Shown one piece after another: positions 10,656 to 18,488 of a stretch of DNA of 64,000 bases. The stretch comes from Luteolibacter flavescens (lineage in GTDB: Bacteria > Verrucomicrobiota > Verrucomicrobiia > Verrucomicrobiales > Akkermansiaceae). A program made the position numbers and the translations under genes. The stretch spans positions 1-64,000 of the forward strand of contig NZ_JAPDDS010000017.1 of NCBI RefSeq assembly GCF_025950085.1. The letters run 5' to 3'. The stretch's first letter is position 1, and every line of letters starts with the position of its first letter. Under the pieces are notes generated by a model, which saw nothing but the letters and a program-made list of their open reading frames with translations, was not told the DNA's origin and did no database searches.

Positions 10656-11810
10656 TCACTTCCCCGCCGCCTGCGGATCGAGCACCCAGCCTTCCGCCTC
10701 GACGCTGTCGATGATGACCTGATCAGCGCGGGCAGCACCCGGAGGGTATTTCACCTTCAGGGCCAAGCGTGTGACCGCCCCCACATCGACGGGGCGGAGC
10801 TGCTGATCCAGCGCACCACCCCGCTGGACATAGCCATAGAGGGAACTCATGCCATCCAGCGAAGCGAGGCGATAGGAGGACCACTCGCGCTCGTCAGCGA
10901 AGTCAAAGTTATAGTAATCGACCGCAGTGAGTTGCACGCGAAAGAGCACGGGCGCGGTCGGCTTCTTCTCCCGGATCTCGTCCCAAGTCATCTCCGACCA
11001 AGCGGCCCAACTGTCCCAATCGACCTTCAAGCGGCCATCCCGGCGGACGAGCGCGATTTCGCGGAGACTTGCATCGGCGACGGAAACGGCGACGACGGAA
11101 ACAGCACCCTCACCGCTACCCGTGGTGATCGGAGTGCTGGCGAAAGAGGAGAAGCCGGGCTTCTCGTAGCCTTCGCCCGAGAGCCACGCGTCCCATTTGG
11201 CGCGGGTCTTCTCGGGATCGAGGACATGCTCCAGGGCCGCTTCCTGGGTGGGCGCATCGAGGAATGCCTTCGCGACGGTCTCAATCTCGACGAGCAACGT
11301 CGGGGCGGACTCCGCGCTGGTGCCGCTGTCCTTTGGCTTGGTGGTCGCTTGTTCGTCCTGGACAGGGGCCTGAGCAGGCATGCCCGCCACCGGTGCGGGT
11401 GCTTTTTCCTGCGGCATCATCCACCAGGCAAAGACGCCCACCAGGACCACGCCCACCACGCCGAGGATGGCGATGAAATTCCGGTCACTGCGGGCGGCAG
11501 CCTGCGCTTCATCAGCCTCCGTATCATCCTCGTATTCCTCCACCAGATCCTCTTCGGGCTCCTCCGGTGCAGGCTCGGCGATAGGGGCGACGAGCGGCGG
11601 CAGCTCATCGTCCGGACCGGGCAGGCGCAGCATGATGCGGCAGGCCGGGCAAACGACGCCCACGCCATCGTGATCCTGTGGCACCCGGAAGACGCAGCGG
11701 CATCCCGGGCACACGAAGCTATTCCACCGTCTTCTGGCAGTGATCACCGTCTCTGACACGCGGGGAAGCTGCGGGCTACGCGGCGGCGGTGCAAGGGTTT
11801 CATCCGGCAC
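10656..11810 (-). CDS. Zinc-ribbon, single-pass membrane protein of unknown function
   Basis: This 384-residue protein begins with a CPGC...CPAC zinc ribbon (residues about 34-57), then an acidic low-complexity linker, one transmembrane helix (FIAILGVVGVVLVGVFAWW) and a Pro/Ala-rich linker. The outer domain of roughly 200 residues has the size and pattern of an NTF2-like or similar fold. The zinc ribbon should face the cytoplasm. It starts 13 bases after the stop of the penicillin-binding protein on the same strand, so both are probably co-transcribed and it may have a cell-envelope role. Function unknown. Confidence 0.78.
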   Translation of the reverse strand: MPDETLAPPPRSPQLPRVSETVITARRRWNSFVCPGCRCVFRVPQDHDGVGVVCPACRIMLRLPGPDDELPPLVAPIAEPAPEEPEEDLVEEYEDDTEADEAQAAARSDRNFIAILGVVGVVLVGVFAWWMMPQEKAPAPVAGMPAQAPVQDEQATTKPKDSGTSAESAPTLLVEIETVAKAFLDAPTQEAALEHVLDPEKTRAKWDAWLSGEGYEKPGFSSFASTPITTGSGEGAVSVVAVSVADASLREIALVRRDGRLKVDWDSWAAWSEMTWDEIREKKPTAPVLFRVQLTAVDYYNFDFADEREWSSYRLASLDGMSSLYGYVQRGGALDQQLRPVDVGAVTRLALKVKYPPGAARADQVIIDSVEAEGWVLDPQAAGK

Positions 11811-11823
11811 ACGGGCGGAGATA

Positions 11824-14247
11824 TCATTCCGACTCGATGTCCAGGCGCTCCGGCCATGGCAGCTTCATGCGGGCTTCCCCGTCGCCGAGGTCGAAGCTGT
11901 CGAGCACGTTGGTGCGGTTGCGCGGAGAGTGCTCCACCGAGCGATCCACCACGAGCTGCTCGGTGTAGTATGGATCGTCGCCCAACAATACCGGATCCTT
12001 TGACCGCACCGGCGTGGTATCGATCACCGCGGTCATGATTAGCGTGGAGGAATCGGAGGGAGCCGCCGCGGTGGCTCCGGAGTGAAGAGGGCAGAATGGA
12101 AGGTTTTCGCTGCCCTTCCTGAAGAACTCCTGGATCTTCGCGGGTCCGGTGAGCGTGGCACCGGTCACGGGATCGGTGATGGTGTCGTAGCAATAGGGCG
12201 TGGCGCGCTGGCCGGAGACGCGGCAGATCTCCGCCTGCACCACGGACTCCGGCTGCGAGATGATCTTCCCTCCAAAGGAAGCCGCGGCGGTATTCATCGC
12301 GTCCTCCCACACCGGCATCGCGAGGTCCTTTGAGAAAGCACCCTCGTAGATCGACTTGCCAGGCTGGAGGAAGCCGACCCAGACGCCACAGGAGACGCGG
12401 CCATTGTAGCCGAGGAACCAATTGTCGGAGAAATCATGCGTGGTGCCCGTCTTGCCCGCGCCGGTGAAGGGCTTCTCGACCATGCGTTCGGCGAGCCCGG
12501 CCACGTTCCCCCGCTCCATCGCGCCGCGCATCATGCTGTGCACGATGAAGGCGGTGGCGTCGTCGGTCGCCTGCAGGCGGGTCGGCGTGAGGATCGCCCG
12601 CTGGTAAACGGTCCGACTGGCCGAATTGTCGATACGATCGACAATGGTGAGCTGGGTCGGAGCGGTCGCTCCGCCACGGGCAAAGGCCGAGATGCCACGC
12701 ACGGCGTCCTTCAGCGAGGCAGCCTCCCAGCCCACGGCGAGGCGCGGCAGGAGCTCGGCGTCCTTCATCGGCAGGCCGAATTTCTCGGCGGTCTTGCGAA
12801 CGTTTTCCAAGCCGGCCATGCCAGCATAGCGGACCGAGGCGGCGATCTTCGAGGCTTCGAGGGCACGGCGCACGGTGATCTTGCCCTCATACACGGGCTT
12901 CGCGGTCTCCATGCCCCACTCGCCGAGGATACCCTCGCGACCGCCGACCATCACGGAGCGGTTGTCCATCGGCTCGTCCTCCACGATCGAGGCCGGGCCC
13001 ATCCCTTGCTCCAGCCCGGCGGCGTAGAGGAAGGGCAGGAAAGCGGTGCCAAGCGGGCGACGGCCCAGCTCGATCACGTCGTAGGGTGCTTCCTCATAGC
13101 TGCGGCCGCCCACGTGGGCGAGCACCTCGCCAGTCTGGTGGTCGATCATCAGGCCGGCGCCCTGCAGATACTCGGGGGCCACACCGGAGGATTTCTTGTA
13201 CTGCGAGCGCTTCTGGTTCGCATAGCCGGGGCGCTTTTCCGCGGCTTCCAGGCTGCGTTGCAGGCTCGCCTCGAGCGCGCGCTGCACGTCGCCATCGATG
13301 GACGTGTGAATGCGGAAGCCACCGGCGGCCAAGGCGTCCTCGCCCATGACGCGGCGGATCTCGTCTGCCACCCGCTCGTAGAGGTGCGTCGTGCCGCGCT
13401 GCAGCGGCTTCGGATTCAGCTTCAGCGGGGTGACTCGGAGCTTGGCGACCTCGCTGCTGCGCACGGCACCAAGATCCACCATGCGGCCCAGCACGAGGTT
13501 CCGCGAAGTCTGGTTCGCCGCCGGATTGTTCAGTGGGGAGAGATTGCTCGGGTTCTTGATACAGCCGACGATCGCAGCGCTCTCCAGCGCATCCAGATCC
13601 TTCGGTTCCTTGCCGAAGTAGCCGAGCGATGCCGAGCGGATGCCGTAGTAGCCGCTGCCGAAATAGATGCGGTTCAGGTAGAATTCCAGGATCTCCTTCT
13701 TCGAGTAGCGCTTCTCGATCCGCTGGGCGAGGAAGGCCTCCACCAGCTTCCGCTCCATCCCGCTCTCTCCGCGCGCCTTCTTCTCCGCCTCCAGGTCGTA
13801 GGCATTCCTCGCCAACTGCTGGGTGATGGTGCTCGCACCCTGGGTCGTCTCGCCTGCCTTGTAATTCAGCCACACGGCGCGGACGATGCCGATGTAGTCC
13901 ACGCCATCGTGCGTTTCGAAACGCTGGTCCTCACCGGCCCTCAGGGCATCGATGAAGATCTGCGGGACCTGCGCGATGGGGATCACGCTGCGGTTCTGGA
14001 CGAAGACGCGACCGATCTCCTTGCCATTCCGGTCGAGGATCAGGCTCGGGATTTCCAGGTCATTGATGCGGGCCAGATCGTAGGTATCCGCGCGCTCCCG
14101 GTAGGGCCGCGTGTAGCGCTCCGCAGCCACCAGACCGATGCCACCGATCAGCAGACCGAAGAGAAGGAAGGAGAACCAGAAGCGTTTCTTCTTGTAGAAG
14201 CGCCGCTTCTTGGGCTTCGTCCGCGTGTTTTTTTCGCTGGTGGCCAT
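11824..14247 (-). CDS. Class A penicillin-binding protein (PBP1A-like) with degenerate transpeptidase motifs
   Basis: An 807-residue bifunctional-type peptidoglycan synthase. A basic N-terminus and one membrane anchor (FSFLLFGLLIGGIGLVAA) lead to a glycosyltransferase 51 domain with AGEDQRFETHDGVD (catalytic Glu106), GASTITQQLARNAY and EFYLNRIYFG. The transpeptidase domain follows. Where family members have the SxxK nucleophile (GSxFKPF), this protein reads GTAFLPF (Thr401, Leu404). The SxN motif reads SKI (466-468), while KTGTT (599-603) is intact. Glycan polymerisation should therefore work, but peptide cross-linking by the usual mechanism looks lost. The ATG at 14247 gives the expected cytoplasmic-basic N-terminus; the frame extends to 14394. 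Confidence 0.92.
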   Translation of the reverse strand: MATSEKNTRTKPKKRRFYKKKRFWFSFLLFGLLIGGIGLVAAERYTRPYRERADTYDLARINDLEIPSLILDRNGKEIGRVFVQNRSVIPIAQVPQIFIDALRAGEDQRFETHDGVDYIGIVRAVWLNYKAGETTQGASTITQQLARNAYDLEAEKKARGESGMERKLVEAFLAQRIEKRYSKKEILEFYLNRIYFGSGYYGIRSASLGYFGKEPKDLDALESAAIVGCIKNPSNLSPLNNPAANQTSRNLVLGRMVDLGAVRSSEVAKLRVTPLKLNPKPLQRGTTHLYERVADEIRRVMGEDALAAGGFRIHTSIDGDVQRALEASLQRSLEAAEKRPGYANQKRSQYKKSSGVAPEYLQGAGLMIDHQTGEVLAHVGGRSYEEAPYDVIELGRRPLGTAFLPFLYAAGLEQGMGPASIVEDEPMDNRSVMVGGREGILGEWGMETAKPVYEGKITVRRALEASKIAASVRYAGMAGLENVRKTAEKFGLPMKDAELLPRLAVGWEAASLKDAVRGISAFARGGATAPTQLTIVDRIDNSASRTVYQRAILTPTRLQATDDATAFIVHSMMRGAMERGNVAGLAERMVEKPFTGAGKTGTTHDFSDNWFLGYNGRVSCGVWVGFLQPGKSIYEGAFSKDLAMPVWEDAMNTAAASFGGKIISQPESVVQAEICRVSGQRATPYCYDTITDPVTGATLTGPAKIQEFFRKGSENLPFCPLHSGATAAAPSDSSTLIMTAVIDTTPVRSKDPVLLGDDPYYTEQLVVDRSVEHSPRNRTNVLDSFDLGDGEARMKLPWPERLDIESE

Positions 14248-15373
14248 GCAGGAATCCGATCGTGACTTGGCCCGGAGTTCCCCCGGTGCCCCATCCGCAT
14301 ACTCTCCGGAATGCGATCGCGCAACACCGGGCTTGGCGGACAGGCTGCGGGAAAAGATACGCGCATCCGGCCCGATTTCCTTTCCGGAATTCATGGCCGC
14401 CGCCCTCTACGACCCCGCGGAGGGCTACTACGGCCGCCCCGCCGGTCAGGTGGGGAAGGCGGGAGACTTCATCACGAGCGTGAGCGTCGGCCCGCTTTTC
14501 GGGCGCCTGCTGGCCCGGCACATTGCCTCGTGGCACCAGCAGGCCGGGTCTCCGGAGCGCTGGCGGATCATCGAAACGGGGGCGAATGACAGTTCGCTGG
14601 CCGGGGACATCATCTCGACTCTGGAGCGACTTTCCGCGGATGCCGGGCTGGAATACGCGATCATCGAACCGCTGCCCCGCCTCGCGCAAGATCAGCGCAA
14701 GCGACTGCCGGGCGTGGCCATCGTGGAAAGTGCCGAGGCCTTCGCGGGCGATCCATTGCCGTCGTTTGTCTTTGGAAACGAGGTGATCGACGCGCTGCCC
14801 TTCCACGTCATCGAGTCCGATGGCATCGCATGGATCGAGCAGGGTGTGACAGTGGATGATGCCGGAGCCTTCGCCTGGCATCCGCTCGGACCCGCCGCGG
14901 CGGAGGTGGTGGGAAACCTGCCGGTGATGCCCGCCGGGTATCGCACCGAGATCCGCTGCGGCGTCCGGGATTTCCTCCGGCCTCTCGCTGCTGCCATGGC
15001 GGGCGGGCGCATGCTGTGGATCGACTACGGCTTCCCGCAAGACGACTACTATCATGAGGCGCGGACCACCGGGACCCTGAGGACCTTTTCCCGGCACCGC
15101 GCGGGCGAGGACCCGCTCGACTCGCCCGGCGAGATCGACATCACCGCCCACGTCGATTTCACCGCCCTCGCCCGGGACCTGGATGCCACGGGCGGCCAGG
15201 TCGTGAGATTCGAGCCACAGGGCAGCTTCCTCACCCGCGTCGCCAGCCCGTGGCTGCTGGAAATGGAAGGCCGCACGGACGACACCACGAAGAAGGAACT
15301 CCGCGCCTTCCAGACCCTCACGCACCCCGGACACCTCGGTTCGCGGTTTCATGTGATGGAGGCGGCATTTTGA
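14246..15373 (+). CDS. MidA/NDUFAF7-like SAM-dependent methyltransferase (DUF185 family)
   Basis: A 375-residue protein of the MidA/NDUFAF7 family; the mitochondrial member methylates an arginine of a complex I subunit. The typical opening is clear (GPISFPEFMAAALYDPAEGYY), followed by GDFITSVSVGPLFGRLLA, IIETGANDSSLAGDI in the SAM-binding region and FGNEVIDALPFHVI. The ATG at 14246 overlaps, in opposite orientation, the start codon of the penicillin-binding protein (shared CATG). A later TTG start inside the first 35 codons is possible, since the family homology begins near residue 31. The bacterial substrate is unknown. Confidence 0.88.
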   Translation: MQESDRDLARSSPGAPSAYSPECDRATPGLADRLREKIRASGPISFPEFMAAALYDPAEGYYGRPAGQVGKAGDFITSVSVGPLFGRLLARHIASWHQQAGSPERWRIIETGANDSSLAGDIISTLERLSADAGLEYAIIEPLPRLAQDQRKRLPGVAIVESAEAFAGDPLPSFVFGNEVIDALPFHVIESDGIAWIEQGVTVDDAGAFAWHPLGPAAAEVVGNLPVMPAGYRTEIRCGVRDFLRPLAAAMAGGRMLWIDYGFPQDDYYHEARTTGTLRTFSRHRAGEDPLDSPGEIDITAHVDFTALARDLDATGGQVVRFEPQGSFLTRVASPWLLEMEGRTDDTTKKELRAFQTLTHPGHLGSRFHVMEAAF

Positions 15374-17087: not shown

Positions 17088-18230
17088 TCAAGAGAAGAGC
17101 GCTTGGACCATGTCCACGCTCTTCCTCCCGGGGAGGACGCTGAGTTCCATCTGGTTCATGACGTAGGCGAAGCTGACGCCGCTGTCGGGATCGCCGAGGG
17201 CGTGGCTGCCGCCGGCACCGGGATGGCCAAAGGCCTCCAGCGACGGACCGTAGAGTTCGCGGACCTTTTTGCCGGACTCGTCCACGGGATCGAGCTGGCA
17301 GCCGCAGGAGAAGGCGGTGGGCTTCATCAGCACGCGATCCTCGCCGGAAATGCGCAGCGTGCCCAGCGCCTGGCGCACGCGGTCATTCAGCGGACTCTCG
17401 ATCGCCCCGATGGCGGCTTGGTAAAATTTCGCCAGCGCCGAGGCGGTGCCCACGCCACCCATCGCAGGCAGGCCGTAGGTCCATGCCTGCGGGTCATTCA
17501 CGTCCTGCACGGAGCGCAGCCCGGCGGGTGAGGCGAAGGAGCGCCGGGTCAGCGTGCCCTCGGTGTTGAACTCCTTGTAAAAGCCATCCTGCAGGTCCTC
17601 CGCGGCGGCCTTGCCCGGGTAGAGTCGGGCGACGCGCGGGTGCTCGCTTTCCGGCAGGCCGATCCAGAATTCCAAGCCGAGCGGTGCGGCGATCTCCTCG
17701 CGCCACACCTGACCGAGCGGCTTGCCCGTCAGGCGGCGCACCGGTTCCTCGACGAGCGATCCAAAGGTGCGCGGATGATAGCCATGGCCATCGCCCGGAC
17801 GCCACGCGGGGACTTGCGCCTCGAGGGCCGCGGCCACGGCGTCGTGATCCCAGATCATCGCGCGCTGATCGAGTGCGGACAGCCCGCATTGATGGGAAAG
17901 GAGGTGGGCAAAGGTCGCCTCCTCCACCGGGAAAGCCGGCCACACCTCTCGCACCAGCGTCTCCGGCCCGAGGCCCTTTGCGTCCAGAGCGAGCAATAGC
18001 GTCGCGGATGCAGGGCCCTTCGTCGCGGAATACACGGGGACCAGCGCCTTCTCGGTCCAAGGGCGGGTCTGCTCCTTCTCACACCAGCCTTCGCCGGTCG
18101 AAAGGACTTCCTCGCCGCGCCACCAGACGCTCACCGAGGCACCGATCTCACCCCGGCTGCGGAAGTTTTCCTCGAAGACGGACAGCAATTCACCGAGCGC
18201 GGACGGAGACACGCCGATGGGGTGAACCAT
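17088..18230 (-). CDS. Beta-lactamase-family serine hydrolase/esterase (class C fold)
   Basis: A 380-residue protein of the class C beta-lactamase/EstB esterase family. The SxxK nucleophile motif is SATK (Ser68, Lys71) within VPVYSATKGPASATLLL, the Tyr motif is GYHPRTFG (Tyr151), and the third motif is represented by FGHPGAGGS. No signal peptide is seen, so it is probably cytoplasmic and more likely an esterase or peptidase than a drug-resistance enzyme. The ATG at 18230 is preferred over 18320, because the upstream codons give no plausible fold or signal and run into the repeat region. Confidence 0.87.
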   Translation of the reverse strand: MVHPIGVSPSALGELLSVFEENFRSRGEIGASVSVWWRGEEVLSTGEGWCEKEQTRPWTEKALVPVYSATKGPASATLLLALDAKGLGPETLVREVWPAFPVEEATFAHLLSHQCGLSALDQRAMIWDHDAVAAALEAQVPAWRPGDGHGYHPRTFGSLVEEPVRRLTGKPLGQVWREEIAAPLGLEFWIGLPESEHPRVARLYPGKAAAEDLQDGFYKEFNTEGTLTRRSFASPAGLRSVQDVNDPQAWTYGLPAMGGVGTASALAKFYQAAIGAIESPLNDRVRQALGTLRISGEDRVLMKPTAFSCGCQLDPVDESGKKVRELYGPSLEAFGHPGAGGSHALGDPDSGVSFAYVMNQMELSVLPGRKSVDMVQALFS

Positions 18231-18302
18231 GGGACCCGGCTTGGCAAGCGAAGCGAGCGGGAGATCGCAGGCCTGAACGCACCGGAAATGCGGGCCGTTG
18301 CT

Positions 18303-18488
18303 CCTGGGAGCGCGGGCCACTGGCCCGCCGAAGCTCGTCTGGCGGCGGAGCTTGTCTTGCGGACTGACTGCCGAGGGGCACCGCCTCCTTGGCGAGGAGG
18401 GAGCGGAGATTGCAGGCCGTTTTTGGCCGCGGGGAGATGCGGGCTGGGAGGGTTCCTTCGGCGGGCCAGTGGCCCGCGCTCCCAGGGG
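18303..18488. repeat. Inverted pair of REP-like repeats (MITE/BIME-like unit)
   Basis: An inverted copy (18303-18333) and a direct copy (18456-18488) of the repeat first seen at 2538-2570 flank about 120 bases of non-coding DNA. Each contains the palindrome GCGGGCCA/TGGCCCGC. The unit fills most of the gap between the hydrolase and lptB genes. It has the layout of a non-autonomous mobile element or paired REP unit; no transposase is nearby. Confidence 0.75.

Follow-up and report, generated by a model that had tools for sequence, protein, structure and literature searches.

Several described systems resemble, in whole or in part, the protein analysed here. The PBP1A family of class A penicillin-binding proteins (aPBPs; TIGR02074), which includes PBP1a of Pseudomonas aeruginosa and Acinetobacter baumannii, joins a GT51 glycosyltransferase domain to a transpeptidase domain. 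The monofunctional glycosyltransferases (TIGR02070), presumably including MtgA and SgtB, have no transpeptidase domain. In Escherichia coli, PBP1A and PBP1B are reported to polymerise with a blocked or dead transpeptidase (PMC4632607), and PBP1B(S510A), whose GT is active and whose transpeptidase is inactive, is described as replacing PBP1B and as sufficing in LdtD-dependent rescue, where it supplies strands for the L,D-transpeptidase (PMC6428754). Natural examples come from Streptomyces, where 13 of 100 class A PBPs are named as lacking the SXXK residues (Ogawara 2016, PMC6273383); both domains are preserved in these proteins, SXN and KTG are mostly conserved, and the author concludes that they can function as PBPs. 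Its section 2.2.1 leaves unstated what replaces SXXK, and reports neither a single ancestral Ser-to-Thr change nor a family-specific segment. Akkermansia has been classed as retaining an aPBP (PMC8406291).

Here we describe an aPBP-like protein encoded in a window of 64,000 nucleotides from Luteolibacter flavescens, and the family to which it belongs. The family shares the architecture of the PBP1A proteins and, by modelling, their fold over both domains, but it mostly lacks the nucleophile Ser, the Lys and the Asn of S-x-N, carries an additional GILGEWGxE segment, and is represented in the window by a protein that scores below the curated PBP1A cut-off. Like the monofunctional glycosyltransferases it is predicted to polymerise without crosslinking, and unlike them it keeps some 300 residues of transpeptidase domain under selection. 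It is natural, whereas PBP1B S510A is a laboratory mutant, and it belongs to a different phylum from the Streptomyces cases. Proteins of this kind, that is aPBPs with a degenerate transpeptidase domain, are already known; a search of open-licence full texts found no description of the Verrucomicrobiota Thr-type aPBP family, which is possibly undescribed.

Results

The gene lies on the minus strand (11824..14394) and is listed as encoding 856 aa. Its probable true start is Met50 (14247), which is kept in at least 90% of a 53-sequence alignment and would give a protein of 807 aa. Pfam places a GT51 domain (Transgly, E=7.1e-57) at residues 124-305 (13480..14025), with Glu155 and Glu219 intact and the motifs EDQRF (155-159) and GASTITQQ (186-193) present, followed by a transpeptidase domain (E=1e-12) at residues 413-663 (12406..13158). 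In the latter, GTAFLPF (residues 449-455; 13030..13050) replaces G-S-x-x-K-P-F, with Thr450 (codon ACC) at the site of the Ser nucleophile and Leu453 (CTG) at that of the Lys. SKI (residues 515-517; 12844..12852) replaces S-x-N, and KTGTT (residues 648-652; 12439..12453) is retained. A phmmer (HMMER) alignment sets Thr450 and Leu453 opposite the catalytic Ser and Lys of the PBP1a structures 4oon (P. aeruginosa) and 3udf (A. baumannii). The first-pass annotation had read these motifs from the DNA in the same way: its Ser-to-Thr and Lys-to-Leu replacements are borne out by the DNA and by the alignment to PBP1a structures, its account of SKI beside intact KTGTT and glycosyltransferase motifs holds, and CTG is, as it had argued, more than one base change (at least two) from either Lys codon. 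It had also named a Ser-x-x-Lys placed elsewhere at the active site by structural alignment as one finding that would overturn its view; a scan of the transpeptidase domain sequence found none, and the sole SxxK of the protein, at residue 397, belongs to the linker that precedes the domain.

The protein has the GT51 domain with catalytic Glu, the penicillin-binding transpeptidase fold and the K-T-G of a class A PBP, while reading T-A-F-L in place of S-x-x-K and S-K-I in place of S-x-N. It scores 403 bits against TIGR02074 (PBP_1a_fam), under the curated cut-off of 508.75, and 95.9 bits against the monofunctional TIGR02070 (cut-off 182.65), whose members lack the transpeptidase domain present here. 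Structure prediction, a check the annotation had proposed, gave an AF2 model from the 53-sequence alignment with a mean pLDDT of 79.3 and a pTM of 0.66. This model aligns (VIA-align) with A. baumannii PBP1a 3ue1_A over 493 residues (Z 44.8, rmsd 7.7) and with 4oon over 384 residues (Z 43.6, rmsd 2.9), and the protein is thus predicted to keep the class A PBP fold.

Alignment with homologues, also proposed at first pass, reveals that what had been noted as a single odd gene belongs to an ancient family, widespread in one class of Verrucomicrobiota. In a protein search all 57 relatives, among them the own genome, gave a match. In G031 the best match was the canonical paralogue (E 2.6e-102), and one orthologue was aligned from each of the other 56 genomes; the nucleophile position is Thr in 55 of these and Ser in one (L057, in G049). 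Such recurrence rules out chance or sequencing error, and the idea of a local mutation or error was rejected on finding the Thr state across the class. In a GTDB scan, all 80 named loci kept, out of 280 encoding a relative, have Thr; Luteolibacter marinus, L. pohnpeiensis, Haloferula rosea and H. luteola are among the cultured organisms represented. Within a class sample, 137 of 384 genomes have a match at E <= 1e-120 and 247 do not, at a threshold set just beyond the best canonical paralogue (4e-116) that split or short genes, such as those of G040 and G053, can escape. Among 145 genomes sampled from the phylum, matches at E <= 1e-60 occur in 20, each of which belongs to the class or is nearer. 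Every one of the 20 genomes of genus g3, apparently Akkermansia (with G090 as probable A. muciniphila ATCC BAA-835), has a match, and the motif, read in 11 of them, is Thr with Leu each time. We note that G031 (family f1), which has a canonical aPBP, gives no Thr-family match at E <= 1e-120, an apparent loss.

Residue states were counted in 177 distinct family sequences from this class. The GT51 residues E155, D156 and E219 are each present in 177/177, as is Pro454 of the transpeptidase domain. The nucleophile site is Thr in 174 and Ser in 3. The +3 site is far more varied (F 70, L 44, T 24, K 15, others 24), and the Asn position of S-x-N is Ile in 105, Asn in 54 and another residue in 18, following a Ser position held by Ser (149), Gly (25) or Ala (3). 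In the KTG motif, K648 is kept in 173/177 and position 649 is T in 98 and G in 62; some members have decayed further here, to KPG, RPG or KGG (L024, L025, L027, L029 and many named loci). The canonical paralogues, taken from genomes that also have a family member, show S, K, SxN and KTG in 23/23; 14 of the 23 were chosen by a script rule requiring S and K, yet all 14 full-length tandem genes listed qualify. Eight further canonical genes (L234-L240, L245) have S-x-x-K.

These counts bear on whether Thr450 might itself act as the nucleophile of a transpeptidase, at least in members that retain Lys, Asn and KTG. Thr, Lys, Asn and K-[T/S]-G occur together in 12/177, nine of them with SxN and KTG, one with SxN and KSG and two with GxN and KTG, and these proteins could conceivably still acylate through Thr. 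In two of the three Ser members, L057 and L230, Ser is accompanied by Lys, SxN and KTG; judged on this complete site, these two may be active transpeptidases. Against a Thr nucleophile, Lys is missing in 162/177 members, the window protein among them, and Asn in 123/177, and we regard this reading as improbable for the family. That Ser is kept where a canonical aPBP is absent was considered and rejected for two genomes, since a canonical paralogue with S-x-x-K is present in both G049 (L057) and G395 (L230).

A FastTree tree was built with the seven motif columns removed (SH-like supports). The 113 family sequences form one clade, with support 0.951, apart from the canonical clade. Under Fitch parsimony the nucleophile site has a Thr root and 3 changes, and the +3 site 36 changes; Thr is thus, on sequence reconstruction, ancestral in the family. 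Two-state counts give 7 changes for the Asn (root Asn) and 9 for the Ser (root Ser) of S-x-N, 8 for the Thr of KTG (root T/S), and 10 for Lys, with a root that is not Lys under unordered parsimony. A +3 root other than Lys implies either that Lys disappeared together with Ser and came back in some lineages, or that there were at least 18 losses and no return; an order of Ser before Lys would require the assumption that Lys is never regained (18 losses). Two Ser exceptions fall within groups of Thr members, L184 pairing with L185 (support 1.0) and L230 standing beside L222/L223 (0.986), while the tree does not resolve the placement of L057. Their codons are AGT in L184, AGC in L230 and TCC in L057, against TCN in 23/23 canonical genes. 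AGY lies one step from the ACN of Thr, unlike canonical TCN, which points to back-mutation in L184 and L230; the TCC of L057 is uninformative on the origin of its Ser.

The region between the former SxxK and SxN motifs is longer in the family and ends in a segment, G488-I-L-G-E-W-G-x-E496, that is absent from canonical paralogues (GILGEWGME in the window protein; residues 488-496, 12907..12933). Its conservation among the 177 sequences is close to complete: G488 177, E496 176 (one Asp), E492 175, G494 175, G491 173 and W493 170. Among the 23 canonical paralogues, E492 occurs in none and E496 in one, 22 have a gap at position 484, and in most the stretch reads W-x-P-x-N-S-D. A stricter pattern for the whole segment matches 149/177 family members, 0/23 canonical and 0/14 short paralogues, and all three Ser exceptions carry the segment.

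One reading of this segment is that the active site has been repurposed, Thr450 together with the newly conserved Glu496 and Glu492 serving a different chemistry or ligand, so that the domain would be a neofunctionalised enzyme or sensor and not a passive scaffold. Thr450 is held much more tightly than the +3 site, its one-time partner in catalysis (3 versus 36 changes), the two Glu residues are nearly invariant between the former motifs (E496 176/177, E492 175/177), and the domain is under purifying selection. On the other side, Thr450 may merely cap a helix, and we know of no Thr-Glu chemistry on the transpeptidase fold; we consider this reading unlikely. A broader formulation, which we offer tentatively as a minority view, is that the family ancestor turned the transpeptidase domain into a non-crosslinking domain with a site of its own (Thr450 plus GILGEWGxE), which would read nascent stems or a partner, or carry out new Thr/Glu chemistry, and would so control the polymerase.

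Selection was estimated as NG86 dN/dS in three related genomes (G000, G009, G007), a simple counting method applied to pairs that are not independent. For the transpeptidase domain the ratios are 0.090, 0.078 and 0.110 in the family and 0.097, 0.087 and 0.102 in the canonical paralogue; for the GT domain they are 0.115-0.150 and 0.141-0.218, respectively, all being rough because dS is unequal between domains. Across 14 genomes, mean pairwise identity of the transpeptidase domain is 0.607 in the family versus 0.683 in the canonical paralogues, and that of the GT domain 0.692 versus 0.689. Were the gene decaying, with a transpeptidase domain left as a neutral relic, the many losses of catalytic motif residues and the identity below that of the canonical domain would be accounted for. 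Yet the family ratios (0.08-0.11) resemble those of the canonical active domain and so indicate a domain that is not decaying, Thr450 is kept in 174/177 and Pro454 and G488 in 177/177, and the family is present across the class; decay is consequently a highly improbable explanation. By these sequence measures the transpeptidase domain appears to be maintained, changing somewhat more than an active one.

The own genome (97.5% complete) encodes four GT51 proteins, the window protein included. A full-length aPBP reads GSVFKPF, SRN and KTGTT; in tandem with it stands a 598-aa open frame whose transpeptidase part lacks SxN and KTG. A more distant GT51 protein reads GSALKPF, SLN and KTGTS and is PBP1C-like by resemblance only. 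There are also three PBPs with intact motifs that have no GT51 match and were assigned to class B on that ground, along with two SEDS proteins. YkuD (L,D-transpeptidase-type) matches number 12, all above the family cut-off and some weak. The search for other class A and B PBPs suggested at first pass has thus turned up two aPBPs and three class B PBPs whose motifs are intact. With these and the YkuD matches, crosslinking need not come from the window protein.

Two side observations concern these other enzymes. In 14 genomes of the family, the gene of the canonical aPBP has beside it, in tandem, that of a short GT51 protein (open frames of 551-618 aa) without SxxK, SxN or KTG, the loci being L068 (G000 C9:57500-63500), L069-L081, L203 and L209; the remnant is under purifying selection (dN/dS 0.060-0.110, three pairs), and comparable frames of 602/639 aa occur in G090 and G019. 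In genus g3, 19 of 20 genomes have one SEDS match, and of the 22 genomes from elsewhere that were searched alongside, 20 have two; either FtsW or RodA would be missing in g3. A true absence of SEDS from G090 (2,664,102 bp) was set aside, as the other 19 of the 20 g3 genomes have one PF01098 match; the PF00905 match located near the SEDS gene of G058 has no counterpart in G090 either, and we suspect a gap in the genome sequence rather than biology.

Directly downstream of the aPBP gene, on the same strand, lies a zinc-ribbon gene (10656..11810, minus; 384 aa, CxxC-x16-CxxC), in the order given by the first-pass annotation, which had called it a zinc-ribbon membrane gene. Its product has one predicted long helix (101-131), a probable membrane anchor. 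A weak NTF2-like part of its C-terminal region aligns with an N-terminal part of Enterococcus faecium PBP5 (Z 9.4, rmsd 2.6, 98 residues), and there is an OB-like part (Z 8.6 or less); Foldseek gave no match with E <= 0.001, and these resemblances are too weak to name the fold. A relative stands beside the aPBP gene in 14 of the 18 loci of the genus and at other loci of the family, with a relative of 25.9% identity in G090 (L205). Strict conservation of this neighbour was rejected, as among the 80 named loci a relative was found in 19 only; at some of the 80, downstream sequence is short. Evolution is more rapid in the zinc-ribbon protein (dN/dS 0.303-0.317) than in the aPBP.

On the other side, a divergent gene (14210..15373, plus) encodes a Methyltransf_28 protein, a relative of which was found at 104 of 111 loci; at 3 of the other 7, upstream sequence is lacking altogether, and no relative was found in G090. 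At CATG (14245-14248) the probable aPBP start Met50, on the minus strand, overlaps an in-frame ATG of this gene, which leaves no intergenic space for a promoter if both starts are used. A few genes away is a serine beta-lactamase family protein (17088-18320; PF00144, E=3.1e-47) with S-A-T-K in its sequence.

Discussion

The first-pass annotation had proposed a glycan polymerase that lost crosslinking, or gained a new role for its transpeptidase domain. Comparative evidence supports this proposal: the GT51 domain is intact, the nucleophile, Lys and Asn are lost, purifying selection acts on what remains of the transpeptidase domain, and the family has gained a conserved segment of its own. We consider it likely that the window protein belongs to an ancient family of class A PBP paralogues, spread across the class, whose sole activity is glycan polymerisation, with the transpeptidase fold kept as a non-crosslinking module.

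Under this polymerase-only reading, the GT51 domain would polymerise lipid II, as the complete conservation of its catalytic residues suggests. The transpeptidase domain would be unable to acylate, Ser having probably changed to Thr in or before the family ancestor, with Lys lost simultaneously or repeatedly later and the Asn of S-x-N lost several times. Kept by selection as a folded module, the domain could serve the GT reaction as a scaffold, as an allosteric domain, or as one that binds a partner or ligand; stem peptides may perhaps be held by the mostly retained K-x-G-[T/S] strand and the GILGEWGxE segment. The new strands would then be crosslinked by other enzymes, whether the canonical aPBP, class B PBPs or L,D-transpeptidases.

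The family would thus represent a natural and ancient separation of polymerisation from crosslinking within a class A PBP whose crosslinking domain has been kept, in a class to which Akkermansia probably belongs. It is a direct test case for non-catalytic roles of the transpeptidase domain and a predicted penicillin-insensitive polymerase, and it implies that counts of class A PBPs taken from domain hits overstate crosslinking capacity.
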